DNA of 58,422 nucleotides from a virus, in IMG/VR virus record IMGVR_UViG_3300021963_000148, positions 1 to 58,422 of that record; one strand, 5' to 3'. The notes under the pieces are model-generated. The model was not told where the DNA came from, searched no databases, and was given only the letters and a program-made list of their open reading frames with translations. The translations under genes were made by a program, and so were the position numbers. Position 1 is the first letter of the stretch. Each line of letters starts with the position of its first letter. Below are positions 3,807 through 33,909 of the stretch, one piece after another.

Positions 3807-4169
3807 ATGTCTACATATTATGTTGGTGATGTTAATTTACAAAATCTTTTAGGAGATGGAGTTCAGCGTTATTTTTATGGGTTAAGAAGAACCGATGATG
3901 GTGATCTTTATATGGGAAAATTAGATCAGTTAAGAGCCGACGATGTTATTACGGTTAATAACCCCGGCTCTACCGAAGACAATTACAACGATTTCGAACT
4001 AGGTATTGATTTTACCGAAGGTCGAGACGTAACACACCAGTTAGTATATGCTAATATCAAATATGAACAATATCGTTGGGACGGTAGAGATTTATTTTAC
4101 TATATCGACGATGACGGACAGCTAGTTATAAGAATTAATGAAAATTACACCTATCCAGCGGGTATATAA
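3807..4169 (+). CDS. Hypothetical virion protein
   Basis: A 120-residue acidic protein preceded by a good ribosome site (aagga, 6 bases before ATG). It contains a YRWDGRDLFYYIDDDGQ segment of the kind seen in small structural proteins of T4-like aquatic phages. No catalytic motif is visible. Its stop overlaps the TATAAATA box that serves the next gene. Position in the fibre cluster suggests a structural part; function unknown. Confidence 0.6.
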   Translation: MSTYYVGDVNLQNLLGDGVQRYFYGLRRTDDGDLYMGKLDQLRADDVITVNNPGSTEDNYNDFELGIDFTEGRDVTHQLVYANIKYEQYRWDGRDLFYYIDDDGQLVIRINENYTYPAGI

Positions 4170-4172
4170 ATA
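4165..4172 (+). promoter_or_regulatory. Late promoter box TATAAATA
   Basis: A perfect T4 late consensus overlapping the stop codon of the preceding gene. In T4, transcription starts about six bases past the box, which gives a ~17-base leader containing taagaga before the ATG at 4195. Confidence 0.75.
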
Positions 4173-10100: not shown

Positions 10101-10302
10101 TGCTGCAACAGGTAGACTTATTGCTGGTACAGTATCTATTGGGCCTGACAGTATTGGAAATACCACAGGTATTAGGAATCAAATGACAGTGCCAGTGCTG
10201 TTTAAAAAGGGACAGGGCGGTTATATGACCGCTTGGAGCATGTTTGCAGACAGCTTTAATTCGCAGTTAGATTGGCAGGAAGTGGGTAGAGATTTAGGAT
10301 AA
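4195..10302 (+). CDS. Giant modular tail/fibre protein with saccharide-binding-like repeats and propeller-like blocks
   Basis: 2,035 residues. Residues 1-460 hold eight ~45-55-residue repeats of the form W..W....Y...D.V.YGG..Y.C...HTS, resembling chitin/cellulose-binding CBM5/12-type modules. Residues ~515-750 look like a pectate-lyase-type right-handed beta-helix (APWRTVKYAC, then IGYLAENGGKIRATNG). Residues ~1105-1365 and ~1500-1780 are two blocks of about six 40-residue units with YGGGKFVAVA and an Asp-box-like S.DG..W, as expected for six-bladed propellers. The end (DQDGNFRVGELFAVEQATG) is shared with the neighbouring giants. It is collinear with the paralogue at 10356. A receptor- or glycan-binding virion protein is inferred. 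Confidence 0.8.
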   Translation: MAEFKISRIKFTWLGEWVPSFNYVKDDIVRYGAKSYACLHGHTSSPNFYTDLEKQDTTTVPITADPQWQLMFDGYEWQGDWIPNNFYNLGDLVKYRGIVYICIERHTSLSSTVGIEGSIVKWAPYAKSEEWTGDWTPNTKYSINDIVKWGGIVYRCVFAHISASLSSGLEQNQGSWEVVVPSEQWKGNWTVDTQYKVNDIVKYGGIVYRCSIAHTSSTTVDNGLEIDLDLLDSTLSKWEIVQEGIEYLGNWIPEITGVTPSPGYRYKLNDVVKWGAGIWICSEGHTSEDTFDLTKWIIYVPGFEYDNTWESTTIYQKGDVVKYGGYSYYAIRNNTNSVPSTALGDSTLDNWELLTKGFKIQGEWAPAIVYRVGDVLRRSGQLYVAVQDTATDPNDDSINWELIIPGEKWQTRWQSGANYVIGDMLTFQSNTYRCLVKHTSNLATRPDVDAGGLWALVNEGDEFNSLREQGDLKFYGVTEDGSSIGNTNLPIGIDGQALQVTSSNEPDWASFQLVEKVYYVSLDGVDQPNYGTTINAPWRTVKYACDSIIGPATIFIKVGVYSEQLPIKVPRDVALVGEELRSTIIEPAQGYALSNMFYVNNGTGIRNMTLRGLNGTLGPFNQYLTRRPTAGAYVSLDPGLGPDDTSVWIINKSCYVQNVTTFGNGCTGLKIDGAIHHGGNRSIVANDFTQVLSDGIGVWCTNKGLTELVSVFSYYGHIGYLAENGGKIRATNGNSSYGTYGCVAEGVAEDELPISGVINNETQEAQIRAAFSGEANDEILKLEFSNAGQNYTSANFAFTGSGVNAQVIGDEIRDNAIFEARILDPVDSTGSVGGGGYISTGNNAQAGDPWSVTIATGDQNDITTYYGCRIILQSGTGTGQYGKVVAYDTVSKIISVASEHFQTITSTATSVTNNLISADTSSLYVGMPVYLSYETINVVITATSVGTNRVTLNSNAGLVVGMPIEFEGPIGVISGATVYYVQSIIPGGTQITISTTNGGGVLSLTNATATINGVAGGMLGGLTAGQLYYVIAANFSSTQFAVSTAPGGTAVTLTTQIGLMYIDRAGWSHVNAGTTNIALLDTTSVYRIEPRPTFSLPPYSEVGLTVAGTGLTWADAVYGSDKWVLLSQSGTVLTYDGSNFSTVTLPTPAGGVYSSISYGGGKFVAIATNVDSVGNPATTAYSANGSSWTGGTMPGTTTNWIDITYGGGKFVAVSATSGTTAAYSLDGISWSSASLPSSGIWASVAYGAGKFVAIRTTSSVAAYSSDGIAWSSSTLPASATWTSVTFGNGRFVAVASGGTRSAISFNGIDWSESILPVSTNWSKVSYGQGQFLAISSSTTATVAFSDDGYYWEAKTVSGNIGRNAVAFGNPNNIGRWITLPINGNSANSITYGSAARGRVEVNGGRISLVKLWDPGSGYIGTEPTLTLTDPNITSSANFECRLATGVLGNPTFINRGIGYKTSTTIVTVSGDGFANILPVGQNLILDNVTRIPRTGANLTLDLISWETSNMPSSNLWSSVTYGDKFVAVAGATGTPTTSAAYSTNGSSWFSSTLPASAAWCGVAYGNGYYVAIASASTEAAYSANGISWNSAALPAGRNWKSVIFGNGVFVAIATGTNKAAYSVDGQNWLESNMPATADWTGIGFGNGLFMAVASGGTIAATSSNGINWNGKALPSTNSWSLVSFYAGQFIAVATGSDKLAYTTDDGTSWNEITLPTSATWSALTHANGKYLLASSIGDFITSTDGLTWKTRSIELLSVKSFAAGANVFVAVGTGPLSAVAPDGSTDIVYRVLTISLLSGTPPTARVAIRVSPAFTRTNAPITGVDVVIREKYSQVRLTGHDFLEIGTGNFVDTNYPLTSVNNFQPDKEVYYRGGGRVFYTSTDQDGNFRVGELFAVEQATGVITISADYFDLSGLSEIRLGGIRVGGTGVVIREFSTDATFTADSNNIVPTQKAIKAYIGRRISGGGSDAATGRLIAGTVSIGPDSIGNTTGIRNQMTVPVLFKKGQGGYMTAWSMFADSFNSQLDWQEVGRDLG

Positions 10303-10329: not shown

Positions 10330-10355
10330 TACTAACATCATAAGCGGAGTGATTG

Positions 10356-13300
10356 ATGGCTGAGTTTAAATTAGGTAGAATACGATTTATTTGGAAAGGC
10401 AATTGGACTGCCGGAACCGCCTACGTCAAAGACGACGTGGTTCGAGTAAACGGTAAAGTCTTTATTTGCGTTATTGGCCACACTGCCGATACTGATTTCT
10501 ATGTAGATTCTGAAAATGTTCCAGCAAGATGGAATCAAATTGCTGACGGTTCAGAATGGCGAGGAGATTGGGTAACCAACGAAGTTTATTACAAAAACGA
10601 CATAGTAAAATATGGCGGACAAGTGTACATCTGTACAGTTGGTCATACATCAGCAGCATCAATTACATTAGGTTTAGAAACTGATTTAAATTTAGGTGAT
10701 AGCACATTATCTAAATGGGATCAATTTGCTGAAAGTTTTGATTGGAAAGGCGATTGGTCAGCAGCTACACGATATAAAGAAAACGATATTGTAAAATACG
10801 GCGGCAATCTTTATCTTTGTAATCTAGGACATACATCTGCTTCTACTATTACTCAAGGTCTTGAGGGTCTAGGTCGAATAACTCCGGGCATTCAAGAAGA
10901 TATTGGAAAATGGGATATCTATTCTGAAGCATTTGATTGGAAAACTGACTGGGCTGTAGCTACTAGATACAAAATCAATGACGTTGTTAAATTTGGCGGC
11001 ACTACATATGTTTGTAATCTAGGACATACATCTGCCGCAACATTTACTCTTGGCCTAGAAGCCGATCAATCCAACTGGGATTATTTTAATCAAGGGATTG
11101 AATATCTAAGCGATTGGGACAATTTTAACGTTGATTATAAAATTAACGATGTAGTAAAGTATGGCGCAAGTCTTTGGATATGTACAGCCAAGCATACTTC
11201 TAGCCTAACAACTACATTTGAAGCTGATGAAGATGCTGGTCGTTGGGCTAGATTTGTTGAAGGCTTAGAGTTTGAAAGTTCTTGGAATACACTAACTATC
11301 TATCAGCCAGGCGATGTGATTACCTACGGTGGTTTTGCTTATATTTCTAAAACAAACCATAGCGGCATTGCTCCTACAACACCAACCACTGGTGCTGTGA
11401 ACTGGGATTTATTTACAACTGGTTTTAAACTACAAAACGATTGGAACTATTCTTTAGATTATAAGATTGGCGACGTAGTAAGACTTAATGGTTATACATA
11501 TACTGCTATCGTTGATGTTCCAAACATAGTAACCACAGCAACTGCAACAGACATTGCTACAAAACGTATCACAGTAACAGATACTACAGGATTTGTAGTA
11601 GGCATGAGTGTGAGATTTGGCGGCACTCTATTTGGAAATTTACAAAACAATGTCACTTACTATGTAAATTCAATACCATCAGGAACAGAATTTACGATTC
11701 GTGTAACAGAATCTGGATCAACACCTGTTGATGTTCAATCATCAACAGGATCAATGACTGTTACAGTAACACCACAGCCACCAAACGCTAGTTATTGGTC
11801 AAGATTAAACAGCGGCATACGCTGGTTTGGCCAATGGCAAGACGATTACGATTATGTGTTAGGTGATGCTGTTAGCTATGGACCTAACAGCTATATTTGT
11901 ATTAACCCACATCATTCAGAAGGGGACGACGGGTCTACATTAACTGTAGGATCTCTAACAACCAGACCGGACGTTGATGTTTCTGGCACATACTGGAATG
12001 TATTAACAGTTGGTAGCGAAACAAATGTTCTAACTACACAGGGCGATATTGTCTATTATGGCGGCGCAGGCCCTACAAGATTACCAATTGGCGCAGATGG
12101 TCAAGTGTTAGTAGTCAACAATGCTGCGGCACCTCAATGGAAATATTGGGGACTCATTGATCAATTATACTATGTTGATATCAACGGTACAGACAGCCCA
12201 GCGCCAACATGGGGGATCACATTAGACAAACCATGGAACACCATACAATATGCTTGTCAACAAATTGAAAAAGGCGCACGAAATCCTAATGCTGCCTATG
12301 CTTTAGAAATTAATAGACAATTTATTCAACGAGAAACTGTTGAATGGATTGATTATCAACGAACAAATAACATTTCTCCGTTTGTTTCTGGCTTTACCTA
12401 CGACAAGACTAAATGTGAACGAGATGTTGGTTATATTTTAGATGCGTTAATTAAAGATGTACGTCAAGGCGGTAATGCTAATACACGTAGAGCAACATTA
12501 GAGTATATTAATAATGCTCCAAACGTTTATTCTTTAGGTCAAGAACAAGAAACTGTGGCAGCTCTTCAGTATGCTATCAACACATTGGCAATTGCTGCTG
12601 TGTTAACTGGTACTCCGCCTGCTGCTAATTACCAAACATTAAACGGCATCTCAGTTGGCAATAGAATCTTACAAATAACAGGCCTAGATGACACTGAACA
12701 AGATGCTTTAAATCAATTAGCTGATCTAAAAGACATAGTGTATGTTAACGTATTAGCTGGTACAACAACAAATTTACCATTAGAAGTACTACCACAAAGA
12801 ACTATTCTAGCTAAGACTGGTGTGTATTATGAAACACTGCCAATTGTTGTGCCTATTAACACAGCAGTAGTTGGTGACGAACTACGATCAACAAATATTA
12901 GACCAGCAGCATCGCAGATTGGATCCGGTGATGTAGCTAAGAGCCTTGATGCTCTGTCACGAATCAGCGCAATAATCAGTGATATTGTACAGGGTAACAC
13001 AGTAGCAAAAACAACAACAGGTTCAAATCCTAACACAGTAGTTCAAAGTCAAACTAAACCGTTTGCTACCGCTACTCAAGGAACCCTGTTAACAGGTTTA
13101 ATAACCAACGCAACAGCATATATTAATTTTTATATCAACGCAACCGGATCTGCTCCTACAATGTCTGGCAGTAACAGTCCAGTGTCATCATATGATGTAT
13201 ATGCTGCTGTTCGTCAATTAGAACTTAATAAAGACTTTATCATTGCTGAAGTTCATGCTTACATAGCATTAACATATCCTTCATATACCTACACACTAGC

Positions 13301-16300
13301 TGCGTGTGCTAGAGATGTTAGCGAATACATAAATGCTTTCAAATATGACTTAATTTACACAGGCAATTACGCAACATTAGTTACTGCTCAATTATACAAA
13401 AACGGTGTAACTGGTTCAATATCAGAGAATATGTTCTTTGTAAGAAACAGCACCGGTCTTCGTAATTGTACTGTACAAGGCCTAACAGGAACACTTGGAG
13501 CTCCTAATGCTTTTGGAACTAGACGACCAACTGCTGGTGCTTATGTTTCCTTAGATCCAGGTTGGGGGACAGGTGATATAAGAGCTTGGATTACCACAAG
13601 ATCATGCTATGTACAAAACGTTACTACCTTTGGTACAGCCTGCGTTGGTCTAATGATTGATGGCAATTTACATGCTGGTGGAAATAAATCTGTAGTTGCC
13701 AACGACTTTACACAGGTATTATCAGATGGTATTGGTGTATGGTGTACGAATTTAGCTAGAACAGAGCTTGTTTCTGTGTTCTCATATTATGGACATATTG
13801 GTTATCTAGCAGAAAACGGTGGTAAGATTCGTGCTACTAACGGTAATAGCTCATATGGTACATTTGGTTGCGTATCTGAAGGTGTTGATCCAACAGAAAC
13901 TGCTATCACTGGCACTGTAAATAACAGATTTGAAGAAGCAGCAGTATCAAAAGTTATAACAAACAACAGTTCAATTCAACGTGTTGAATTTTTAAATGCT
14001 GGTAGTGACTATACATCAGGAACATTTACATTTAACGGCGCTGGTATTAATGCTGAAACAGTTGGCAACGAAGTTCGAGACAACGCTGTTTTTGAAGTAA
14101 GATTGTTAGACTTAGATGATAGTTCTGGACAGTTTGGCGGTCAAGATTATGTCAGCGTTGAAAACGTGGCACAAACTGGATCTAGCACATCAATCACGTT
14201 AGCAGCCACAGACGCAAACACTAGTTCTGCTTATGTTGGAATGAGAATATTGTTAACAGGCGGTACTGGTCAATCACAATTTGGTTACATCAATTCTTAT
14301 AACAGTGGTACTAAAGTAGCACAGATTTACAAAGAATCAACGGGCACAGCAGGTTGGGATCACAGTGTTCCAGGCACAACAATTACTGCGCCTGATGCGT
14401 CAACACAATACATTATTGAACCAAGATTAACATTCACAGCACCGGCATTTACTGACACTGTTACTAATACACTACCAGTAACAGTTGGCATTAATGAAGT
14501 GATATATGCTCCAACAAGATCGTCACACCCAGCAACTTCAGCTACAGGTGGCGCAGGCACGCTGGCAACATTTGATGTTATAAGAATTGGATTAGTGTAC
14601 ACAGTGACTCTAAATTCAGGAGGGTCGGGATACGTTGTAGGAAATACTCTAACGATTGCAGGTACTAGTGTTAACGGTGCTACTCCTACTAATGATATTA
14701 CAATAACTGTAACTAACGTCACATCACCTGCTGGAGTTATCACAGGGTTTACTTCTAGCGGGTACGCTCGTGGTGGCAATTACGTAGCTGTTCCGATCAG
14801 CGGCGCTTCTGGAATGTATTCGCAAGATGCTGTAACATGGACATCAAGTACATTGCCAGCAACTCAAGCATGGTCCAGCGCAGCATTTGGTACAATTGGC
14901 TCTACAGAATATGTAGTAGCACTGCCAAGTTCGGGATCAACCTCGGCGGCATCAAGTACCAATGGCGGCGAAACATGGGCATTAGCAACATTACCACAAA
15001 CTGGAACATATACAGCAGTGGCATTTGGTAATTCAAGATTTGTTGGAGTACGCAGCGATTCCGCTACTCCAGTAGTTTCGACAAACGGTACAACATGGGC
15101 AAACGGTTCTAACACATTGCCGACTGCTACTAGTTGGACTTCGATCACATACGGCGGCGGGAAATTTGTTGCTGTAGCAACAGGCACTAACACTGCCACA
15201 TATAGTTTAGACGGTATAACATGGGCTTCTGCTACATTACCATCTAGCACTACATGGTCAAGTGTGTCCTATGGTAACAACAGATTTGTTGCTGTAAACT
15301 CAACAGGAACAGCAGCCGCATACAGTACAAATGGTACATCATGGACCGCTGTAAGTTCGCCTCCAGGTGCTAACAGAGTGTCTTACGGTCAGGGAGTGTT
15401 CCTTGGAACACGTATTGACTCTGCTGGTACTTCTATTTGGACTTCACCTGATGGTATAGTATGGACTACACGAACCGTGACTAGCGGTCGATATGCTAAA
15501 CCTGCTTTAGGAAATTCAAATTGGACTCCTCGTTGGGCGTTGATCAATAATACTACAGGCACTACAGGAAGATACGTAGTTGCTGGTGCTACAACACAGG
15601 CAAGATGTACAGTAACTGACGGAAAAATTACAGAAATTAGAATTGTAGAACCTGGTAGCGGCTACTCAAGTGCTCCTACTATGACTGTTACTGATCCTAA
15701 CAATACCTACGAAGTGCCATTTACAGTGAGAACAGGCCGTGGTGCTCTAGCAAATCCATCCTTTAGTAACAGAGGAACTTTATGGGTAACTGCTACAGCA
15801 ACAATTACTGGTAATGGATATGCTGATTTATTCCAGCCTGGCAGTTATGTTGACGTTAAAGATTTGTTCAGCGTACCAGTAGCAGGCTCAAACGTTGTAT
15901 TCTCAAGCCTACCAAACAATTATTACAAATTAGTTACAGTTACAAATCTAGCAGGTACTGGACCTTATACTGCTAGATTACAGGTTAGCCCTCCAATAAC
16001 AATCGCTGAAGCACCTGCGCACAACGAATCTTTTGAAGCAAGAATTCGTTATTCACAGTGTCGTTTGACTGGACATGACTTCTTAGATATTGGTACTGGT
16101 AACTTTGCTAATACCAACTACCCAGGATTGCCTTTACAAAACCCTGTTCAAGCATCAGAAACAGTGGAAGGCGGCGGAGGACGAGTGTTCTTTACATCAA
16201 CAGACCAAGACGGTAACTTCCGTGTTGGTGATCTGTTTACTATTGAACAGGCAACAGGTACTGCTAGTTTGAATGCTTCAGCGTTTAATTTAGCTGGACT

Positions 16301-16619
16301 ACAAGAACTTCAGTTGGGTTCTGTGGAATTAGGAACTGGCGGAGCAACAATTACTGAATTTAGTACAGACCCGTTCTTTACAGCTGATTCAGATAGTGTA
16401 ATTCCAACACAACGGGCAATTAAAGCGTATATTGCGTCTCAGATTGGTTCAGGTTCTAGTACTTTGAACGTAAATACACTTACCGCAGGTTCGGTATTTG
16501 TATCTGGGTCAACTATTACAACAACTACTGGATTCAAAATTACAGTTAACACTAAATTTGAATTTACCCGTGGAATTGACGGATACCCAGTAGCAATGAA
16601 TTTGTTCTTACAAGGATAA
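10356..16619 (+). CDS. Giant modular tail/fibre protein, paralogue of the protein at 4195
   Basis: 2,087 residues. I place the start at ATG 10356 rather than the TTG three bases upstream, because MAEFKLGRIRFIWKG aligns with the paralogue's MAEFKISRIKFTWLG. It contains eight N-terminal W..W...Y..DVVKYGG..Y.C..HTS repeats (residues ~1-545). An inserted helical segment has KCERDVGYILDAL and ACARDVSEYINAF, the repeat type found in the 2,610-residue protein at 26031. A beta-helix follows at ~1020-1180. One ATFDVIRxG...GYVVGNTL module lies near ~1410. One six-unit propeller-like block lies at ~1475-1705. The C-terminus shares the GNFRVGDLFTIEQATG motif. Likely a glycan-recognising virion protein; the exact position in the tail is unknown. 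Confidence 0.8.
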   Translation: MAEFKLGRIRFIWKGNWTAGTAYVKDDVVRVNGKVFICVIGHTADTDFYVDSENVPARWNQIADGSEWRGDWVTNEVYYKNDIVKYGGQVYICTVGHTSAASITLGLETDLNLGDSTLSKWDQFAESFDWKGDWSAATRYKENDIVKYGGNLYLCNLGHTSASTITQGLEGLGRITPGIQEDIGKWDIYSEAFDWKTDWAVATRYKINDVVKFGGTTYVCNLGHTSAATFTLGLEADQSNWDYFNQGIEYLSDWDNFNVDYKINDVVKYGASLWICTAKHTSSLTTTFEADEDAGRWARFVEGLEFESSWNTLTIYQPGDVITYGGFAYISKTNHSGIAPTTPTTGAVNWDLFTTGFKLQNDWNYSLDYKIGDVVRLNGYTYTAIVDVPNIVTTATATDIATKRITVTDTTGFVVGMSVRFGGTLFGNLQNNVTYYVNSIPSGTEFTIRVTESGSTPVDVQSSTGSMTVTVTPQPPNASYWSRLNSGIRWFGQWQDDYDYVLGDAVSYGPNSYICINPHHSEGDDGSTLTVGSLTTRPDVDVSGTYWNVLTVGSETNVLTTQGDIVYYGGAGPTRLPIGADGQVLVVNNAAAPQWKYWGLIDQLYYVDINGTDSPAPTWGITLDKPWNTIQYACQQIEKGARNPNAAYALEINRQFIQRETVEWIDYQRTNNISPFVSGFTYDKTKCERDVGYILDALIKDVRQGGNANTRRATLEYINNAPNVYSLGQEQETVAALQYAINTLAIAAVLTGTPPAANYQTLNGISVGNRILQITGLDDTEQDALNQLADLKDIVYVNVLAGTTTNLPLEVLPQRTILAKTGVYYETLPIVVPINTAVVGDELRSTNIRPAASQIGSGDVAKSLDALSRISAIISDIVQGNTVAKTTTGSNPNTVVQSQTKPFATATQGTLLTGLITNATAYINFYINATGSAPTMSGSNSPVSSYDVYAAVRQLELNKDFIIAEVHAYIALTYPSYTYTLAACARDVSEYINAFKYDLIYTGNYATLVTAQLYKNGVTGSISENMFFVRNSTGLRNCTVQGLTGTLGAPNAFGTRRPTAGAYVSLDPGWGTGDIRAWITTRSCYVQNVTTFGTACVGLMIDGNLHAGGNKSVVANDFTQVLSDGIGVWCTNLARTELVSVFSYYGHIGYLAENGGKIRATNGNSSYGTFGCVSEGVDPTETAITGTVNNRFEEAAVSKVITNNSSIQRVEFLNAGSDYTSGTFTFNGAGINAETVGNEVRDNAVFEVRLLDLDDSSGQFGGQDYVSVENVAQTGSSTSITLAATDANTSSAYVGMRILLTGGTGQSQFGYINSYNSGTKVAQIYKESTGTAGWDHSVPGTTITAPDASTQYIIEPRLTFTAPAFTDTVTNTLPVTVGINEVIYAPTRSSHPATSATGGAGTLATFDVIRIGLVYTVTLNSGGSGYVVGNTLTIAGTSVNGATPTNDITITVTNVTSPAGVITGFTSSGYARGGNYVAVPISGASGMYSQDAVTWTSSTLPATQAWSSAAFGTIGSTEYVVALPSSGSTSAASSTNGGETWALATLPQTGTYTAVAFGNSRFVGVRSDSATPVVSTNGTTWANGSNTLPTATSWTSITYGGGKFVAVATGTNTATYSLDGITWASATLPSSTTWSSVSYGNNRFVAVNSTGTAAAYSTNGTSWTAVSSPPGANRVSYGQGVFLGTRIDSAGTSIWTSPDGIVWTTRTVTSGRYAKPALGNSNWTPRWALINNTTGTTGRYVVAGATTQARCTVTDGKITEIRIVEPGSGYSSAPTMTVTDPNNTYEVPFTVRTGRGALANPSFSNRGTLWVTATATITGNGYADLFQPGSYVDVKDLFSVPVAGSNVVFSSLPNNYYKLVTVTNLAGTGPYTARLQVSPPITIAEAPAHNESFEARIRYSQCRLTGHDFLDIGTGNFANTNYPGLPLQNPVQASETVEGGGGRVFFTSTDQDGNFRVGDLFTIEQATGTASLNASAFNLAGLQELQLGSVELGTGGATITEFSTDPFFTADSDSVIPTQRAIKAYIASQIGSGSSTLNVNTLTAGSVFVSGSTITTTTGFKITVNTKFEFTRGIDGYPVAMNLFLQG

Positions 16620-16630
16620 TGGAGATTTAA

Positions 16631-16951
16631 ATGGCAACAGGAAGATTAGGAGCATCAGACCTTTCAGCAGCGACAAATACGTCGCTATACACTTGCCCCT
16701 CAGATACATTTGCGGTTATTTCAGTATCGCTGTGTAACAGGGCTAACCAAGCATGTAATATACGTATGGCAGTGGCTAATGCTGCTACGCCAACAAATGC
16801 TGAATGGATAGAATTTGACACGGAACTTTTAGGTAAAGGTGTGCTTGAAAGAACTGGTATAGTCATGGACGCAGGCAAAATTTTGGTGGTTTACAGTAAC
16901 CAAGCCAACGTTAGCGCAGTGGCGTTTGGACTCGAAACATCTACGATTTAA
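16631..16951 (+). CDS. Small virion-type protein, paralogue of the protein at 3468
   Basis: 106 residues, with a ggaga ribosome site. It has the same length class and gene context (directly after a giant fibre-like gene) as the protein at 3468, and shares the pattern of a hydrophobic V-S-L-C-N core strand and a C-terminal AxxF/Y strand. Reads as a single beta-sandwich domain. No enzyme motif is seen. A structural accessory role is inferred. Confidence 0.6.
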   Translation: MATGRLGASDLSAATNTSLYTCPSDTFAVISVSLCNRANQACNIRMAVANAATPTNAEWIEFDTELLGKGVLERTGIVMDAGKILVVYSNQANVSAVAFGLETSTI

Positions 16952-16976: not shown

Positions 16977-17309
16977 ATGGGAAGATATATTACAACAACT
17001 GGCACAGCAGGCACTACTATACGTGAAGTTAGCAGTGCTTTTAATGCTTCAGTTAATGATCGAATTTTAGCAAATTCGTCAGGCGCTGCGTTTACAATTA
17101 CGCTGCCATCGTCATCGACGTTATTTTTGAATGACACAATTCAAATTATTGACATTGGCGGTGTTACAGCAACAAATAACATCACTGTTGCTCGAAACGG
17201 AGCAAAAATACAAAACGTAGCTGACGATTTAACAATTGACATTAACGGGTCTATTATTACTTTGACATATACTGGTTCGAGTTACGGATGGATTGTATCA
17301 TCGGCTTAA
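16977..17309 (+). CDS. Small beta-rich virion protein
   Basis: 110 residues with a Thr/Ile/Asn-rich, strand-forming sequence (FTITLPSSSTLFLNDTIQI, then GAKIQNVADDLTIDINGS). This pattern is typical of the C-terminal beta domain of phage fibres and tail spikes that wrap trimeric tips. Here it is a separate gene with its own late promoter and strong ribosome site. It sits just before the Cys-rich adhesin-like genes, so it may be a tip or adaptor protein. Function inferred from context only. Confidence 0.6.
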   Translation: MGRYITTTGTAGTTIREVSSAFNASVNDRILANSSGAAFTITLPSSSTLFLNDTIQIIDIGGVTATNNITVARNGAKIQNVADDLTIDINGSIITLTYTGSSYGWIVSSA

Positions 17310-17351: not shown

Positions 17352-18326
17352 ATGCCTGTATCATTTAAAAGCCTGATAGGGACCAAAACAAATAGTTTCT
17401 ACACCACTAACGGTGATGAAAGCAATTTGGAAAGAGGTCGAGTATGGAGCTATACACCAGGTAACGATTTTTCACAGTTTGCCATGTGCTGGATTGCCCC
17501 GTCCCGCGGTACTGCTGTGATTGAAATTTGGGGTGCTGGCGGAAGTACTGGTCGCATGTGCTGTTGTGGAGGTGGTACTCCTGGCAACGCCGGAGCATAC
17601 TCTAAAAAAACAATTAAGATGGAAGCTGGTTGTTTTATCTGCGGATCAGTGGGTTATGCCTGCGGTAACGATGCTATGTGCTTTAGAGGTTGTTCAGATC
17701 CAACAGGATTATATTGGTACGGCAATTGCGGTACCAGCGGTTGCATGTGCGCTCAAGGTGGCGCAGGCGGCAGAAGTATGTGCTCTACTGGTACATCTTT
17801 GTTCTGTTGCTTTGTAAACCAAAGCCATTGTTTTTCTGGACCATACAATGATAACTGCGGATTGATTTGTAACTACTTCGGTGGTATTTGGATTGCCTGT
17901 GCCTACGGCGGTGATGTTAATCGATGTGGACATTTTTCATGTTCACTGTTTGTTGGCTGCTCGCCACAGTGTCCTTGTTCATTCCAATATTTTATGGCTA
18001 CACCTGCTGGTCAATTTGCCAAATGTGGCGGAGTTGTTCAGTTTGGTGTTGAAGACGGTAATGAGTTTTCAAACTGGTCAGGGCAGGGCCCACACCAACA
18101 TCAAGCAGGATTAAACGGATTATCTAGAAAACCCAATGGCGGTGTGCCTTGGGCATACTGCTGGGGAGCTGGTGTAGGTTGCGGCTGTTACGAAAACCAA
18201 GGCTGCTCAACAAACATGCCACCGGGTCATCCTGCTATGGCTGTTCACCCATGCCCTGGCGTTAGAGACAACGGTAACCGCGGTGGTCACGGCGCAATAA
18301 GAATTAAGTTTATCGAAGGAATTTAA
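17352..18326 (+). CDS. Gly/Cys-rich adhesin-like protein 1 of 3
   Basis: 324 residues with 30 cysteines (about 9%) and many glycines. The core pattern VIEIWGAGGSTGR...GNAGAYSKKT and the ending GGHGAIRIKF match the glycine-rich domain common in phage tail-tip proteins (Gly_rich type). Many positions that are normally Gly are Cys here, for example MCCCGGG and SGCMCAQGGAGG. There is no signal peptide. The ribosome site is aggaag. It is the first of three tandem paralogues. I infer a receptor-binding tip protein whose fold may be stabilised by disulfides or bound metal; neither can be shown from sequence. Confidence 0.7.
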   Translation: MPVSFKSLIGTKTNSFYTTNGDESNLERGRVWSYTPGNDFSQFAMCWIAPSRGTAVIEIWGAGGSTGRMCCCGGGTPGNAGAYSKKTIKMEAGCFICGSVGYACGNDAMCFRGCSDPTGLYWYGNCGTSGCMCAQGGAGGRSMCSTGTSLFCCFVNQSHCFSGPYNDNCGLICNYFGGIWIACAYGGDVNRCGHFSCSLFVGCSPQCPCSFQYFMATPAGQFAKCGGVVQFGVEDGNEFSNWSGQGPHQHQAGLNGLSRKPNGGVPWAYCWGAGVGCGCYENQGCSTNMPPGHPAMAVHPCPGVRDNGNRGGHGAIRIKFIEGI

Positions 18327-18327
18327 T

Positions 18328-19326
18328 ATGCCAACGTCGTTTAGATCACTAACAAGAACAAAATTAAATTTTATTGCTGACGAAGAAGAAAATCTCGAAC
18401 AAGGTAGAATTTGGGCATTTACTCACGGCAACGTAAGAACAAAACACTGTACAGGATTTTGTTGGACTGCTCCTAGCGCAGGATGTGTGACATTAGAAAT
18501 ATGGGGTGCTGGCGGCAGCGGCGCAAAAATGTGTTGTTGTGGTGCCGGCATTCCTGGAAATCCAGGTGCTTATTCTAAAAGATCATTTGTCACAAACACA
18601 GGTTGTAAAATCTGCGGTGATGTAGGTTTTAGTTGCGGCAACGCCAATGACCTTTGCTTCCGTGGCTGTTCTGAATCCACGCAGGTATGCTGGTTCAGTT
18701 CAACAACTAATGGTTGTATGTGCGCTCAAGGTGGGCGTGGAGGTACTAGTTACTGCTCCACTGGTACTGCTTTATATTGTTGTTTTATTGCTGGTAATTT
18801 TTGCGGAACACAAGTTGGCAGCCCAGGCTGTGGAATTATATGTAATTATGGTCCAGGCACCGGTACTTGCTGTGCCCAAGCCTATGGCGGTGATGTAAAC
18901 TGTTTTGGTGGATTTAGCTGTGTGAGCTTTTTTGGTTGCTTGCCAACATGTCCTTGTTTGTTTCAATACCACCATGCTATACCAGCAGGCAGATATGCGC
19001 AAGATGGTGGTGTTATTACGTACACTACTGATGCTGACAATGGTGCTGAAAACTGGTCAGGTACTGGATTAAACGGATTTTTAGTTGGACTTGGTGTTGC
19101 TGGAAAAAGTCCATCACATGGATACATGAATAATAACTGCTGGACAGGCGGAAGATCATGTGGGTGCTATGACGGTCAAGGTTGTATAGTGTTTGTGCCG
19201 CCCGGGTTTCCAGGAAGACCAGGAAAGGGATGCCCAGATGTTCGAGATCACGGCGGCCGTGGCGGACATGGTGCTGTGCGTATTCGATTCGTTGCAGCAG
19301 GAACTCGAAACAATTTCTTAGAATAA
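18328..19326 (+). CDS. Gly/Cys-rich adhesin-like protein 2 of 3
   Basis: 332 residues with 32 cysteines. It starts one base after the previous stop, with ribosome site aagga in the end of the upstream gene. It has the same glycine-rich core (LEIWGAGGSGAKMCCCG) and C-terminal GRGGHGAVRIRF, followed by an extra 10-residue tail absent from its sisters. The segment between residues ~235 and 285 is the most divergent, which is where receptor-specific loops would be expected in an adhesin family. Confidence 0.7.
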   Translation: MPTSFRSLTRTKLNFIADEEENLEQGRIWAFTHGNVRTKHCTGFCWTAPSAGCVTLEIWGAGGSGAKMCCCGAGIPGNPGAYSKRSFVTNTGCKICGDVGFSCGNANDLCFRGCSESTQVCWFSSTTNGCMCAQGGRGGTSYCSTGTALYCCFIAGNFCGTQVGSPGCGIICNYGPGTGTCCAQAYGGDVNCFGGFSCVSFFGCLPTCPCLFQYHHAIPAGRYAQDGGVITYTTDADNGAENWSGTGLNGFLVGLGVAGKSPSHGYMNNNCWTGGRSCGCYDGQGCIVFVPPGFPGRPGKGCPDVRDHGGRGGHGAVRIRFVAAGTRNNFLE

Positions 19327-19339
19327 AGAGAGAATACAG

Positions 19340-20302
19340 ATGCCAACGTCGTTACAATTATTAGTTAGATCAAGATCAATAGCTCGAGAAGAAGAGAATA
19401 TCGAAAAAGGTCGTATTTGGGTATATACTCCTGGTACATTTTACACAAATCTTGTTAACGGATTTTGTTGGCAAGCACCAGGGACCGGAACTGCTGTTAT
19501 TGAGCTATGGGGTGCTGGCGGCAGCGGTGGTCGTATGTGCTGTTGCGGTGGCGGCCTTCCGGGCAATGCCGGAGCATACTCAAAACGAACCATACAGGTA
19601 TGCGCAGGAAAATATGTGTGTGGCGGCCTAGGATTTAGCTGCGGCAACGCAGACGCTATTTGTTTCCGTGGTTGTTCAGACTCATCGGGATTATGTTGGC
19701 AGGGTGCTGCTAGTACCAATGGTTGTATGTGTGCGCAAGGCGGCGCTGGCGGAAGATCATTCTGCTCAACAGGCACATCAATGTACTGTTGTTTTGCTGC
19801 TAACGGGTTTTGTGCTCGTGGACCATACAACGACAACTGTGGGTTAATCTGTAACTACTTCAGTGGTATTTGGATTGCCTGTGGTTACGGTGGCGATGTT
19901 AACTGTTGTGGACAGTTTAGTTGTACTTCGTTCAACGGATGTCAACCAAGTTGTACCTGCTGTTTTGCTTATCACATAGCCACACCAGCTAATTTTTATA
20001 GTTGCTGCGGCGGGACTGCTGCTTATCAAACAGAAGATGATAACAGACATACCAATGGACATAACGGTCAAGGTAAGATGCAGTCTATAAACGCAATCGC
20101 ATCATTGAGCAGAAGCCCAACTACGGGAGTTCCTCACAGTTATTGCTGGCGTTCAGATCGTGCTTGTGGCTGTTACGAAATGCAGGGTTGTACACCTTAT
20201 ATTCCACCAGGAACTGGCGGATGGGCACCAAGACCATGTCCAGATCACAGAGATCACGCAGGTCGTGGCGGTCACGGCGCTGTACGCATTAAATTCTTTT
20301 GA
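19340..20302 (+). CDS. Gly/Cys-rich adhesin-like protein 3 of 3
   Basis: 320 residues with 33 cysteines, the highest fraction of the three (about 10%), including CC pairs not present in the others. The ribosome site is agagag. It ends at GGHGAVRIKFF. The variable region at residues ~225-260 (NRHTNGHNGQGKM) is His/Asn-rich. Together with the two upstream copies it probably forms alternative or hetero-oligomeric fibre tips; this is inference. Confidence 0.7.
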   Translation: MPTSLQLLVRSRSIAREEENIEKGRIWVYTPGTFYTNLVNGFCWQAPGTGTAVIELWGAGGSGGRMCCCGGGLPGNAGAYSKRTIQVCAGKYVCGGLGFSCGNADAICFRGCSDSSGLCWQGAASTNGCMCAQGGAGGRSFCSTGTSMYCCFAANGFCARGPYNDNCGLICNYFSGIWIACGYGGDVNCCGQFSCTSFNGCQPSCTCCFAYHIATPANFYSCCGGTAAYQTEDDNRHTNGHNGQGKMQSINAIASLSRSPTTGVPHSYCWRSDRACGCYEMQGCTPYIPPGTGGWAPRPCPDHRDHAGRGGHGAVRIKFF

Positions 20303-20324: not shown

Positions 20325-20969
20325 ATGAGAAAAGCATTTACTTTTTTATTACCAGATGAACCATATAAAACAACCACTGTTAACAATTATACAGTGAATG
20401 CTGTTTATACAGGTCCAAGATATCTTGCCCTATGCGTAATTGACGCTACTGGCGAGATCAAATATATTGCCAAACGTGCTGACACTGAAGCAGAATTAAA
20501 TTTTGAAGCATTAGTCGATGACGATCCAGAAACTACTTTTATTAAATTAGACGCAGATGTGCACACATATCAAGCAGCATATTTGACCAATTCCTACGAA
20601 TACGCCCAAGAAATTTCAGATTACGAAGAAGATGTCCCTGGCGGAAAATACACATATCAATACGATCAAAAGCAAGGCGCATTGGGTCAATGTCGTTGGG
20701 TTAATGACTTGAAATACGTTGACGGAAATTACGTAGGTCCAAGATTCCGTGAGCATGCCAATTCTAGAGCAAGTTTTTTTGAAAGTATAAAACTTGTGAT
20801 TCCTGCGATTGAAAATGCTATTTCACAGCGTGTTGAAAATCTTTATACAGACGAAGATGTTCAAAAATTAGAAGATCATTTAGATTTTTTAAAAAATATT
20901 GAAACAACATACGCAGGTGTTGACCACTGGAAAATTCCTTTCCCAAGCGATTTGCCAAATTACTATTAA
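20325..20969 (+). CDS. Hypothetical protein, possible fibre-assembly factor
   Basis: 214 residues, acidic in the middle (residues ~105-115). The C-terminal third is helical (ENAISQRVENLYTDEDVQKLEDHL) and ends in HWKIPFPSDLP. That layout resembles the C-terminal helix plus Pro-rich end of phage tail-fibre assembly chaperones, which usually lie just after the adhesin gene, as here. The similarity is weak, so a small virion protein is equally possible. Confidence 0.5.
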   Translation: MRKAFTFLLPDEPYKTTTVNNYTVNAVYTGPRYLALCVIDATGEIKYIAKRADTEAELNFEALVDDDPETTFIKLDADVHTYQAAYLTNSYEYAQEISDYEEDVPGGKYTYQYDQKQGALGQCRWVNDLKYVDGNYVGPRFREHANSRASFFESIKLVIPAIENAISQRVENLYTDEDVQKLEDHLDFLKNIETTYAGVDHWKIPFPSDLPNYY

Positions 20970-21049: not shown

Positions 21050-21994
21050 ATGGAGAAACGCTCTAAAGCATTTTTTATCAACGGCGGTGCGGGCCGTATG
21101 TTATGTTCAGTACCCGCATTTGAAAAATATGAACAAGAGTCCGGCGATAAAGATTTTATCATAGTCTGCGAAGGCGGAACGGATGTGTTCAAAGGGCATC
21201 CTACCTTAGATTCTAGGACCTATGATGTTTGGCACAAAAATCTTTTTGTAGAAAAACTCAAAGACAAAGACATCTATACCATAGAACCTTATCGTGTTTG
21301 GGAATATTACAATCAAAAATGTAGTATTGCTCAAGCAATAGATATTGAAATTAATAAACAAGGTATTAGAGAATTATCAAAACCCACACTACGACTAAGC
21401 AAAGACGAGTTAATTGCTGGTCGTCAATTAATCAGCGAAGTTAAAAAGAAACTAAAAAAAGAAAAAGTAATAGTATTCCAGCCATTTGGCCGTGGCATTG
21501 AATATCTCGATGAATCATTTGTAGACAGAACTTCTAGAAGCATTGAATATAAAGATGTTAAAAAAATAATTCAAAAACTTCAAGAAAAGGGGTTTGCTGT
21601 AATAATGATGAGCGAAATAAAACTTGATTTAACTCAAGAAAAAAATATCAAAGATGAAATAGCATTTCCAGAAAATGTATCAATTAGACAATGGGCTGCT
21701 GTGATAAAATACGCTGATCACTTTTTAGGGTGTGATAGTTTAGGACAACACCTTGCTTATTCTATGGATAGGCCATCGACTGTAGTGTTTGGCTCTACGT
21801 ATCCTATAAATGTTTCTTATCCTAACGCTAAGAACTTTAATATTTTAGACATGGGTGAAGAACTTCGAGAATACAGTCCTATTAGAATCACTATGGATGA
21901 GCGCATTGATAGAAAACATGAAAGTCTTATGACAATGACTCCTGAAATTATTGACTATGTAGTTGACGCTGTAATAGGAAAACATAAAAAATGA
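21050..21994 (+). CDS. GT9-like glycosyltransferase (heptosyltransferase family)
   Basis: 314 residues. The N-terminal GGAGRMLCSVPAFEKY, the mid-protein VIVFQPFGRG and the C-terminal FLGCDSLGQHLAYSMDRPS/VVFGSTYP follow the two-domain GT-B plan of family 9 (ADP-heptose:LPS heptosyltransferases), where the GCDSG.xH..A segment binds the nucleotide sugar. The length is typical or slightly short. The ribosome site is tggag. It overlaps the carbamoyltransferase gene by ATGA. It probably transfers a sugar to host surface glycan or a phage product. An ADP-heptose donor is plausible given the heptose operon at 33903, but is not shown. Confidence 0.65.
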   Translation: MEKRSKAFFINGGAGRMLCSVPAFEKYEQESGDKDFIIVCEGGTDVFKGHPTLDSRTYDVWHKNLFVEKLKDKDIYTIEPYRVWEYYNQKCSIAQAIDIEINKQGIRELSKPTLRLSKDELIAGRQLISEVKKKLKKEKVIVFQPFGRGIEYLDESFVDRTSRSIEYKDVKKIIQKLQEKGFAVIMMSEIKLDLTQEKNIKDEIAFPENVSIRQWAAVIKYADHFLGCDSLGQHLAYSMDRPSTVVFGSTYPINVSYPNAKNFNILDMGEELREYSPIRITMDERIDRKHESLMTMTPEIIDYVVDAVIGKHKK

Positions 21995-23820
21995 ACACTG
22001 AACAACAAGATTTAACTCCAAAATTAAAAACAGGGTGGATAGCAGCCATAGCACGTGGCCATAACTCTGGAGTTTGTTTATTAAAAGACGGAGAAATTGT
22101 ATTTTCTATAGAAGAAGAAAGATTGACACGCCACAAGTACGACGGCGGCCCATATGCTTCTATAATGAAAATTTTAGAGTATACTGATAAATTAGATTAT
22201 CTAGTCGTTGCTCACACACAGAAATTAAATGATACTGCTGGCCGAGTTGACTACACCGGAGACGATGTGTATACCGGGCTAGCTCGTAAAATGGGATTGA
22301 TTGATCGAAAAGCCAATCTCTACAATCACCCACAGGTCATTGATCTTAGCTTTTTACATCATAAATTACATGCTGCTTGTGCTTTTTACAGATCAGGATG
22401 GGAAGAAGCTGTTTCTTTAATTGTTGATGGTGCTGGAACATTCATTCCTTTATCCTATGATAATCAACAGATATGGAGTTACGAAGTAGAGACAATTGTT
22501 GACTGTGCGTATCCTTCTCAATTTACTACCTTATACAAACATTACGGTGTGCGTGAAGGTATCCCAGCACAGTATTATGACAAACTTCCTTCTGATCAGT
22601 TTGGCGAAGCTGGAGAATTTCATCAAGCATGGGTTTCTGACCGAGCCGGTATTGTTAAAACCTACGAAGGTGTTACAGAGTACTGCGGCTTTACTGCTAT
22701 TGAAGCAGGAAAGACCATGGGATTGTTTCCATACGGTAAGCCTAACGATAAGATACCTAAGTTATTTGAATCAAACTCAAAGTTTCCTGTTTCAAACAGA
22801 AACTTAATTGTTCCAATGTATCCATCGAGTTCAACAGTTAACGCAAACCTTTTTGATTTTTTAGATGAAAATCCAGAAGATGAAAAAACTGATGTTACTA
22901 CTTTACAGAATCGTAGAGATATGGCCTACGCTGTACAGACTGAAACACAAGAACAAGTTTTAAAATTAATTCGAAAAGCTTCTGAAATGAGTGGTAAGAA
23001 GCGAGTAGTGATCAGTGGAGGTTATGGTTTAAATTGTGTAGCCAACTATTATTACTTAGAACATCTTAAAAACGAAGGTATTGAAATTTATGTAGAACCA
23101 ATTTCAAACGATGCCGGTACTGCGATGGGAGCAGCATTGATGTTTTGGCATGCCTTAGACGACAACATGACAATTCAAAAACTCGATACGTTGTATCTTG
23201 GACCAGTTCATACATACACACAATCTGAAATTGAAGAAAAAGTTAAATTTGCTGGAGGCAAGCTGACTGATGCCACACACAAAGATGTTGTTAAACTGTT
23301 ACGTGAAAAGAACATTGTTACGATATTTCAAGGACGTTCAGAAAACGGTCCAAGAGCATTAGGCAATCGTTCAGTGCTTTTTGACCCTACATTTCCAGAT
23401 GGCAAGGACTATGTAAATCAAGTAAAACATCGCGAATACTTCCGACCATTTGCTGGCAGTATTTTAGAAGAAGATGCGCACGATTGGTTTGATCTACGTG
23501 GAATGAAAAACAGCCCACACATGATGTACGCTGTAAATTGCCAGCCCGGTGTTGAAGAAAAGATTCCAAGTATTATTCATGAAGATCATACTTGTCGTAT
23601 TCAAACAGTTAATCCTGAGCAAAACAAACATTATTATGATTTGATCAAAGCATTTAAAGACGAAACTGGAATCCCTATTTTGTTTAATACTAGTTTTAAT
23701 TTGGGCGGAGATCCGTTAGTTGAAACTCTAGATGATGCTATAGATACGCTGATGCGCAGTGATATTGAATATTTGTATTTGCCCGAATATGGCAAGCTAA
23801 TAAAAATAGAAAACAGCTAA
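21991..23820 (+). CDS. NodU/CmcH-family O-carbamoyltransferase
   Basis: 609 residues, a usual length for the family. The N-terminal Kae1-like ATPase fold starts with ARGHNSGVCLLKDG and continues with IEEERLTRHK; a metal-binding HHKLH segment lies near residue 125. The C-terminal catalytic domain contains GRSENGPRALGNRSVL near residue 447 and the terminal FNTSFNLGGDPLV. Such enzymes move a carbamoyl group from carbamoyl phosphate to a sugar hydroxyl. Start ATG overlaps the upstream stop (ATGA). The gene is followed by a strong terminator. With the GT9 gene it forms a two-step sugar-modification cassette; the acceptor is unknown. Confidence 0.85.
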   Translation: MNTEQQDLTPKLKTGWIAAIARGHNSGVCLLKDGEIVFSIEEERLTRHKYDGGPYASIMKILEYTDKLDYLVVAHTQKLNDTAGRVDYTGDDVYTGLARKMGLIDRKANLYNHPQVIDLSFLHHKLHAACAFYRSGWEEAVSLIVDGAGTFIPLSYDNQQIWSYEVETIVDCAYPSQFTTLYKHYGVREGIPAQYYDKLPSDQFGEAGEFHQAWVSDRAGIVKTYEGVTEYCGFTAIEAGKTMGLFPYGKPNDKIPKLFESNSKFPVSNRNLIVPMYPSSSTVNANLFDFLDENPEDEKTDVTTLQNRRDMAYAVQTETQEQVLKLIRKASEMSGKKRVVISGGYGLNCVANYYYLEHLKNEGIEIYVEPISNDAGTAMGAALMFWHALDDNMTIQKLDTLYLGPVHTYTQSEIEEKVKFAGGKLTDATHKDVVKLLREKNIVTIFQGRSENGPRALGNRSVLFDPTFPDGKDYVNQVKHREYFRPFAGSILEEDAHDWFDLRGMKNSPHMMYAVNCQPGVEEKIPSIIHEDHTCRIQTVNPEQNKHYYDLIKAFKDETGIPILFNTSFNLGGDPLVETLDDAIDTLMRSDIEYLYLPEYGKLIKIENS

Positions 23821-23825
23821 AAACA

Positions 23826-23845
23826 CCCCCGCAAGGGGGTTTTTT
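23826..23845 (+). terminator. Rho-independent terminator
   Basis: ccccc-gcaa-ggggg stem-loop with flanking A/T pairs, followed by six T. It lies directly after the carbamoyltransferase stop. Confidence 0.9.
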
Positions 23846-23890: not shown

Positions 23891-25453
23891 ATGGCAGATT
23901 TTAACAAGTATTTTGTACCTAATGTAAAAAACACCCTACAAGTCAAAAATGGGGTGAATTTTCTTCACAAAGGCCCATGGATACAGATCTTTGATGATAC
24001 TGAAATCGACAGATGGTATGTTGGCGATTTTGCCAGCGCCAGCTATCAGCTTTCCATCGAGTTTAATTCAAACAAAAAAGAAACACTACAGGTATTAGTT
24101 GTAGCTAGACCAGATTACGCAAATTATTCTATTATTGGTCGAGTTGCCATCGACGACGAACTTGTAGATATTTCAGCTACTGTTAATAACAGCTATCTTA
24201 GTTTAAAATTGTCACCTAAAATTCCAGCATATCGTGGAATGAAAGCAATTTATAAAGCAAACTACTCAGGTGTTTTAAACGAAATTGAACGTCCGGCCAC
24301 TCCAACGTTTTTAGTACCTTCGACAGTGCCTTCAACACCGGGCACTGGTGGTGGCGGTGGGTCAAGTGTAGACTTAGGTTCAATCACACAAGACATTGTT
24401 CCGTCAACTGCTGGCTCTGTAAATTTAGGATCTTTGGCAAATAATTGGAATGACCTGTATCTACAAAATTCTATAGTGTTAAACGGTGCTGTTATATCTA
24501 GCACAGGATCAAATGCTATCGAATTACCATTTGGATCTACTATTGGCGGCACAGCATTAAATTTCTTTTCTAGACTAGCAGTTTCAGGCGAAAGCGATGT
24601 TGTTGCTGAAACACCAAACGACACAGTTACACTAGTAGCAGGAACTGGCATTAGCATATCCACTGACCCACTAACTGACTCAATAGTAATTACAAATACA
24701 GGTAGCGGCACTGAAGGCGGTGGTGGCGGGGGCGGTAGTACATCATTGTCAAACTCATTTACAACTATAGCCGTGTTGGGCCAATCAAACGTAGTTGCTG
24801 ATACTCCGTCAGACACGTTAACTTTAGTAGCCGGCAGCGGAATGACTATATCTACTAATGCTGCTGCTGATACTATTATATTTTCTTCCACAGGTGGCAG
24901 CGGAGGTGGCAGCGGAGGTACAGCAGCATCTGTGCTTGTTCAAGAAATTACAACAGGAATATTTCCGTTAGTAGTATCAACAGGAGTTGATTCTGTATCA
25001 GGACAATCTCTGTATGCTGACACGGCGGTAACACTAAACACTGCTACAAATGTTTTAACTGTTACTGCTACACAAGCACAATGGGCGGACTTAGCAGAAA
25101 ATTATCAAGCAGATTTTAACTATGCCCCAGGGACTGTGTTAGAATTTGGTGGCGAATACGAAGTAACCGAAGCCACAGACGAAACAAGACGTGTAGCTGG
25201 AGTAGTATCAACTAGCCCAGCACATTTGATGAATAGTAAATTGATTGGAAATAATGTTGTTGCCATTGCTCTTCAAGGTCGTGTCCCATGTAAAGTTCGT
25301 GGAAAAATTAGAAAAGGCGATTTAATGGTAAGTGGCGGTGGCGGATACGCAAGACCAACACAGGATCCTAAAATTGGCACAATCATTGGAAAAGCCCTAG
25401 AAGACTTTAACGATGTTGAAGGTGTTATAGAAGTGGTAGTAGGCAGGCTATAA
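23891..25453 (+). CDS. Virion protein with C-terminal processing/chaperone-like domain
   Basis: 520 residues. Residues 1-135 form a conserved globular domain (WIQIFDDTEIDRWYVGDFASA). A Pro/Gly-rich linker and two related repeats (FFSRLAVSGESDVVAETPNDTV and FTTIAVLGQSNVVADTPSDTL) follow. The last ~150 residues (WADLAENYQADFNYAPGTV, AGVVSTSPAHLMN, ALQGRVPCKVRGKIRKGDL, GTIIGKALEDF) match the C-terminal domain common in T4-like aquatic phage fibres, related in pattern to intramolecular-chaperone/peptidase G2 domains. Glycine runs act as hinges. A fibre or baseplate role is inferred. Whether self-cleavage occurs cannot be read from the sequence. Confidence 0.7.
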   Translation: MADFNKYFVPNVKNTLQVKNGVNFLHKGPWIQIFDDTEIDRWYVGDFASASYQLSIEFNSNKKETLQVLVVARPDYANYSIIGRVAIDDELVDISATVNNSYLSLKLSPKIPAYRGMKAIYKANYSGVLNEIERPATPTFLVPSTVPSTPGTGGGGGSSVDLGSITQDIVPSTAGSVNLGSLANNWNDLYLQNSIVLNGAVISSTGSNAIELPFGSTIGGTALNFFSRLAVSGESDVVAETPNDTVTLVAGTGISISTDPLTDSIVITNTGSGTEGGGGGGGSTSLSNSFTTIAVLGQSNVVADTPSDTLTLVAGSGMTISTNAAADTIIFSSTGGSGGGSGGTAASVLVQEITTGIFPLVVSTGVDSVSGQSLYADTAVTLNTATNVLTVTATQAQWADLAENYQADFNYAPGTVLEFGGEYEVTEATDETRRVAGVVSTSPAHLMNSKLIGNNVVAIALQGRVPCKVRGKIRKGDLMVSGGGGYARPTQDPKIGTIIGKALEDFNDVEGVIEVVVGRL

Positions 25454-25456
25454 ATA
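25449..25456 (+). promoter_or_regulatory. Late promoter box TATAAATA
   Basis: Perfect late consensus that contains the stop codon of the upstream gene; 13 bases before the ATG at 25470. The predicted leader is about 8 bases. Confidence 0.7.
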
Positions 25457-33895: not shown

Positions 33896-33909
33896 ATATA
33901 GTATGACCC
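33879..33909 (+). promoter_or_regulatory. Hairpin enclosing the -10 and the start codon
   Basis: A perfect 9-bp inverted repeat, gggtcatac (33879-33887) and gtatgaccc (33901-33909), with a 13-base loop holding the -10. The right arm contains the ATG at 33903. No T-run follows, so this is not a terminator. In read-through RNA the start codon would be paired; in RNA started at the local promoter the left arm is missing. Confidence 0.6.

Follow-up and report, generated by a model that had tools for sequence, protein, structure and literature searches.

The window, a 58,422-base IMG/VR-type virus record that we assigned to a T4-type myophage, carries three consecutive genes for glycine- and cysteine-rich proteins which, on balance, are likely to encode three distinct subunits of one long-tail-fibre receptor-binding tip, stapled through their cysteines by disulfides. 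The nearest relatives of the window's tail sheath are those of large myophages such as Phosso, PA5oct and Atu_ph07.

A cysteine-rich gene triplet within a tail-fibre gene run

The triplet and its neighbours are as follows, where the neighbourhood counts, out of 134 or 144 loci, include near-identical contigs:

10353..16619, plus strand: giant long-tail-fibre protein (2088 aa; CBM5/12 repeats; Pfam CBM_5_12, 3.5e-41; phrog_9851 tail fiber, 3.9e-183)
16631..16951, plus strand: small tail-fibre-associated protein (106 aa; phrog_11338 tail fiber, 1.1e-9; upstream in 138/144 loci)
16977..17309, plus strand: 110-aa protein equivalent to the C-terminal domain of the S-SSM7 tail fibre (upstream in 136/144 loci)
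17352..18326, plus strand: Cys/Gly-rich tip protein, copy 1 (324 aa, 30 Cys, 9.3% Cys; phrog_4205, 5.4e-10)
18328..19326, plus strand: Cys/Gly-rich tip protein, copy 2 (332 aa, 32 Cys, 9.6% Cys; phrog_4205, 3.3e-10)
19340..20302, plus strand: Cys/Gly-rich tip protein, copy 3 (320 aa, 33 Cys, 10.3% Cys; phrog_4205, 1.8e-7)
20325..20969, plus strand: probable tail-fibre assembly chaperone (214 aa; phrog_9740; directly 3' of the triplet in 128/134 loci)
21050..21994, plus strand: GT9-type (heptosyltransferase-like) glycosyltransferase (Pfam Glyco_transf_9, 5.4e-8; downstream in 128/134 loci)
21991..23820, plus strand: NodU-type carbamoyltransferase (NodU model, 1.7e-41; 4-base overlap with the GT9 gene)
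23825..23840, plus strand: strong intrinsic-terminator-like hairpin (ACCCCCGCAAGGGGGT-TTTTT), 5 bases past the carbamoyltransferase stop, closing the co-oriented gene run

A first-pass annotation of this DNA had described three tandem Gly/Cys-rich proteins with 9-10% cysteine, and the open reading frames agree with it to the base, at 9.3-10.3% Cys and 17-19% Gly, with 51-59% identity to copy 1 across the triplet. The other genes of the tail-fibre region contain between 0 and, at most, 2.8% Cys, so that the enrichment is specific to the triplet and does not reflect a genome-wide bias; the purely compositional bias of the whole phage that the same annotation had named as one refuting outcome is thereby contradicted. 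Elsewhere in the window, the only further Cys-rich reading frames are a 98-aa one that is probably spurious and a zinc-ribbon-like small protein of 111 aa (41599-41934, minus strand, 8.1% Cys), which is unrelated to the triplet.

A homologue of the giant fibre lies upstream of the triplet in 136/144 loci. In the window, two giant fibre genes (4195-10302 and 10353-16619) are tandem paralogues, both starting with MAEFK and containing repeated CBM5/12-like segments, and the triplet accompanies the second only. The 110-aa protein at 16977-17309 matches the last domain of the S-SSM7 protein SSSM7_113 (BLASTP 3e-16, 38% identity over 96 residues), pointing to a gene fusion in S-SSM7. The T4-type late promoter TATAAATA is not enriched in the window (2 sites vs 5.7 expected); the sole two sites, at 4165-4172 and 25449-25456, lie 13-31 bases upstream of the structural genes starting at 4195 and 25470.

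Family membership and distribution

The profile of phrog_4205, a PHROGs family of unknown function, covers most of each copy (1.8e-7 to 3.3e-10) and is matched by 8/8 members of set A3. Pfam gives no match for the triplet proteins at E<=1, Gly_rich_2 (PF21722) included, and G000 is likewise without Gly_rich_2, whereas cyanophage homologues score over the Pfam cut-off for this domain. The window-type and cyanophage-type groups share about 25% identity and are joined unambiguously by profile-profile comparison (hhalign, 99.7%, E 4e-26). The window proteins are thus homologues of Gly_rich_2 through the cyanophage intermediates.

A scan of IMG/VR yielded 177 relatives, and a second scan with the cyanophage members 227 candidates; all family members checked contain about 7-12% Cys. 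Among isolates, the family occurs in the Synechococcus phages S-CAM1, S-CAM3 and S-SSM7 and in the Prochlorococcus phage P-SSM2, and it is also carried by the single-cell virus AG-345-F15; its members there are labelled hypothetical or are unannotated. Against isolate phages, tblastn gave no match at 1e-5 for copy 3 and only weak S-CAM1 matches for copy 2; these relatives, which profile searches recovered, were probably masked by low-complexity filtering. A scan of genome contigs returned a single match, in a MAG labelled Euryarchaeota archaeon (L164, PAOW01000006.1), which is probably a misbinned phage contig. We found no paper on these Cys-rich tip proteins in the open-access literature and no virion proteomics covering them; the genomes of S-SM1, S-PM2 and Syn9, phages with virion proteomes, contain no Cys-rich family member that we could find.

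Other cyanophage Gly_rich_2 proteins are poor in cysteine (0.8-2.5% in Syn9 gp36/38/39 and 0.4% in PSSM2_126, vs 10.1% in PSSM2_304/306), and the Cys-rich state is therefore a property of the present lineage and not of the domain. These low-Cys relatives show the cysteines to be an addition within the Gly_rich_2 kin. As a side observation, Syn9 gp39 (L203, 5150-6328) resembles two tandem Gly-rich units with out-of-frame stretches, which suggests a decayed duplication.

Predicted fold of the tip proteins

An AlphaFold model of copy 1, built with 106 family sequences, reached a pLDDT of 82.4 and a pTM of 0.82. Its best PDB match is the Pam3 fibre (7ypx; Foldseek E 1.4e-5), and model residues 28-324 superimpose on residues 77-278 of Pam3 gp24 with a VIA Z of 14.7 (193 aligned, rmsd 3.4). 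The next solved folds are the Bxb1 tail tip and then the ALK/LTK TG domain, and the best matches among viral models are the S-CAM3 and P-SSM2 homologues; sequence profiles of the tip family found no match in the PDB. In this single-chain prediction, the N-terminus contains only one helix (residues 5-15), at low confidence.

The matched region of Pam3 gp24 comprises the TNF-like and glycine-rich host-recognition domains, and the fibre forms a 3:3 complex with its chaperone gp25 (PMC9608196). Since a confident model matches the receptor-binding half of this fibre, the designation as tail-tip adhesin is well supported. The glycine-rich tail-tip domain proposed in the first-pass annotation is thus recovered both in this fold match and in the Gly_rich_2 assignment of the cyanophage homologues.

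Copy number and lineage of the triplet

In the comparison of copy number that had been suggested for this locus, exactly three copies are present in 111 of the 123 loci with both flanks (near-identical contigs included; 102 distinct triplets). Among loci found through GT9, 54/64 have three copies and ten have two. One- or two-copy relatives are a minority, P-SSM2 having two, and the Cys content is still about 10% in four single-copy loci (L021, L063, L073 and L078).

In a tree of the window group, copies 1, 2 and 3 cluster mostly by position and not by phage, which indicates that they are old and separately maintained. A single clade uniting copy 1 of the window and cyanophage groups is rejected (p-AU 7e-6), each group going with its own three, and additional, distinct triplets, each clustering within itself, are present in S-SSM7 and L161. 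On these grounds, three-ness has recurred. As far as the trees allow, the triplets would reflect either several triplications or an early homogenisation of sets, and both would favour selection for three. Position-wise lineages and repeated triplets therefore suggest three non-interchangeable subunits of a trimer; the copy facts support a heterotrimer without proving it, and a trimer whose chains come from one, two or three genes would accommodate the one- or two-copy relatives. A recombining adhesin cassette serving host-range change, as had been envisaged, was set aside as unsupported, given that the copies sort by gene position and are not exchanged or homogenised within each phage.

Conservation and chemistry of the cysteines

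The earlier impression that the Cys are conserved in all copies, with variable mid-late loops, holds: about 24 Cys columns are conserved at >=0.92 in the window group, and residues ~228-268 are variable. When set against relatives that are about 60-70% identical, copies 1, 2 and 3 share 30/30, 28/32 and 30/33 of their Cys, respectively, vs about 60% of other residues, and 32 of these 88 kept Cys (~36%) have undergone a synonymous codon change. Twelve Cys are common to at least half of both groups, which are only about 25% identical (70, 71, 72, 104, 114, 133, 144, 160, 203, 209, 270 and 301 in copy 1 numbering). Cysteine richness by chance is excluded, since the homologues all have about 7-12% Cys and their Cys outlast other residues and are often recoded.

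It had also been claimed that the Cys replace glycines. Cys sites do not alternate with Gly, however; where a Cys is lost, R, T, D, Q, Y, I or N takes its place, and Gly makes up 6.7% of replacements vs 16.5% in the background. The Cys are therefore no stand-in for Gly, and a mutational Gly-to-Cys bias was rejected on the same evidence.

The total of Cys per triplet shows no parity signal (52 odd v 50 even among the 102 distinct triplets), covariation between Cys is confined to a few weak pairs (87/119, 119/224 and 121/197), too few to assign disulfides, and the number of Cys is not constant, being over- rather than under-dispersed. As totals are even and odd equally often and variable Cys seldom change pairwise, not every Cys is obligately paired. 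In addition, the Cys serve the protein itself and not GT9, because single-copy loci keep about 10% Cys and L063, the one of them that was inspected, lacks both an adjoining GT9 and a chaperone-like gene. With full pairing excluded by parity and covariation, and with Cys that serve the protein itself, we consider a partial network of disulfides more plausible than metal binding, albeit with low confidence. In this regard, disulfides have been listed as one of the stabilisers of Gly-rich PPII bundles (PMC8409303).

Genes following the triplet

The 214-aa protein encoded directly after the triplet is a probable fibre-assembly chaperone. Two of 91 homologues match PF16778 Phage_tail_APC (2.5e-8) and one each matches tail-fibre-assembly PHROGs; the window protein itself matches none of these. 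In its AlphaFold model (pLDDT 96.4), a beta-rich N-terminal part precedes two long helices at the C-terminus; a fold search of the PDB with this model gave no informative match, and sequence profiles found only implausible weak matches there. Several relatives (L030, L035, L045 and L161) have two copies of this gene, and in L161, P-SSM2 and AG-345-F15 one copy lies between Cys-rich genes.

GT9 is present in 6/6 records with Cys-rich proteins and in 0/11 without, in tests that are not independent, as the phages are related. A reverse search by GT9 alone found Cys-rich neighbours in 71/80 loci, and several of the remaining loci are truncated. Four loci with GT9 relatives (L277, L285, L294 and L295) have no Cys-rich protein in the available flank and a rearranged gene order, with one or two related ~300-aa reading frames (RLFTFGCSYTSYSWPTW-type start) after GT9. 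Family profiles of the 21050-21994 product gave only weak LPS heptosyltransferase matches, with no BAHT (autotransporter heptosyltransferase) model among the NCBIfam matches, and a profile search found no relative in the PDB. The carbamoyltransferase follows in 119/134 loci and occurs in 6/6 Cys-rich-positive and 1/11 negative records.

Farther along the window (33903-36750) lies a set of ADP-heptose genes, namely an adenylyltransferase, an HldE-type kinase and an HldD-type epimerase, together with a cupin and an unassigned 163-aa reading frame. P-SSM2 and S-CAM1 have the equivalent cluster directly 3' of the tip, GT9 and carbamoyltransferase genes. In the P-SSM2 cluster, PSSM2_312 (L204, 11637-11993) is annotated as a cysteine dioxygenase, and the window cupin (34965-35393) is similarly placed; the dioxygenase label may therefore be a non-specific assignment of a cupin.

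Discussion

Our findings allow us to propose a model in which each copy is predicted to fold, much as the distal half of the Pam3 fibre does, into a TNF-like beta-sandwich bearing a head that is rich in glycine and of the polyglycine-II type. Copies 1, 2 and 3 would together make up a single heterotrimeric head that caps the trimeric fibre, a proposal that we base on the trimerisation of TNF-like heads in Pam3 and on the recurrence of exactly three separately maintained paralogues. Folding of the head would be helped by the chaperone-like protein encoded directly after the triplet. The conserved Cys occupy positions other than those of glycine and lie beyond the N-terminal stalk; after exit from the reducing cytoplasm, they would form disulfides between neighbouring strands and loops, and probably between subunits, making a floppy glycine scaffold rigid, and some would remain free. 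The linked GT9 and carbamoyltransferase may serve to decorate either the tip or the surface of the host. That all of these elements operate together, in a heterotrimeric tip of co-evolving Cys-rich polyglycine-head paralogues that is assembled in the reduced state by a dedicated chaperone, locked by oxidation on release and decorated by linked glycosyl- and carbamoyltransferases, is a speculative extension that we consider quite improbable as a whole.

Several other explanations deserve to be weighed against the disulfide-stapled tip. The three proteins could act as alternative adhesins on separate fibres and make up a polyvalent set, not the subunits of one head; the loops that vary between copies, the use of several receptor-binding proteins by many phages and the two paralogous giant fibres of the window speak for such a set, which nevertheless seems doubtful to us in view of the fixed gene order, the position-specific orthology, the repeated arrival at exactly three, the one fibre gene directly upstream and the usually single chaperone-like gene per triplet. 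It is likewise unlikely, in our judgement, that the Cys bind iron, zinc or copper instead of forming disulfides, with CCC, CxC and CGC clusters holding ions that rigidify the tip or allow the phage to exploit a metal-uptake receptor of the host, along the lines of the Ferrojan-type idea. Conserved CCC, CxC and CC clusters and the tolerance of odd Cys totals are consistent with metal binding, and marine phages have been suggested to carry iron-binding motifs in their tail fibres (PMC11705849); we identified no conserved classical metal motif, however, and His is not enriched.

We also give a low probability to the idea that the tip itself is glycosylated by GT9 and the carbamoyltransferase, perhaps at Cys, Ser or Thr residues, with ADP-heptose made by the phage. 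The co-occurrence of GT9 with Cys-rich proteins in both directions of search, the placement of GT9 and the triplet in one co-oriented, terminator-closed gene run and the ADP-heptose genes of the window would accord with it. On the other hand, the four single-copy loci at about 10% Cys, with L063 lacking an adjacent GT9, indicate that Cys richness can do without GT9, which could alter host LPS instead, and a BAHT-type match is missing. Finally, it is hardly credible that the Cys are a functionless product of mutational bias: Gly and Cys codons are only one base apart (GGY to TGY), but lost Cys turn to R, T, D, Q or Y instead of Gly, kept Cys persist across synonymous codon changes and other genes are Cys-poor.

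Databases label the triplet proteins hypothetical or of unknown function, although aquatic T4-type phages encode them beside a tail fibre in hundreds of contigs. Should they prove to be the host-recognition tip, many cyanophages and jumbo myophages would gain an adhesin that has been missing so far. In that case, they would also exemplify, in nature, a trimeric adhesin that has repeatedly expanded from one subunit to three, and would allow a test of whether disulfide or metal chemistry is used by phages to harden a receptor-binding head once the cell has lysed. The linked GT9 and carbamoyltransferase, moreover, raise the question of glycosylated phage tips.

Among known systems, the fibre gp24 of the myocyanophage Pam3 (7ypx, 7yfw) resembles the triplet in its distal head, TNF-like and glycine-rich, and in the chaperone-like gene adjoining it. 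It is nevertheless a homotrimer from one gene with a long N-terminal helical bundle (PMC9608196), whereas here there are three paralogous genes with about 30 Cys each and a short N-terminal helix of low confidence. Tail proteins with Gly_rich_2 (PF21722), such as Syn9 gp36/38/39 and PSSM2_126, share a domain family with the cyanophage homologues by Pfam but differ from the triplet in their low Cys content (0.4-2.5%), and the window members lie below Pfam detection. The T-even gp38 adhesins of S16 and PP01 are alike in their polyglycine-II lattice and variable recognition loops (PMC12892980); they differ in having a beta-helix domain and not a TNF-like one and in their attachment, and they are absent among the fold matches listed. 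The extracellular TG domain of ALK/LTK, which combines TNF-like and glycine-rich folds (VIA Z about 8-10.6), belongs to animal receptor kinases, and its likeness to the tip proteins is one of fold only.
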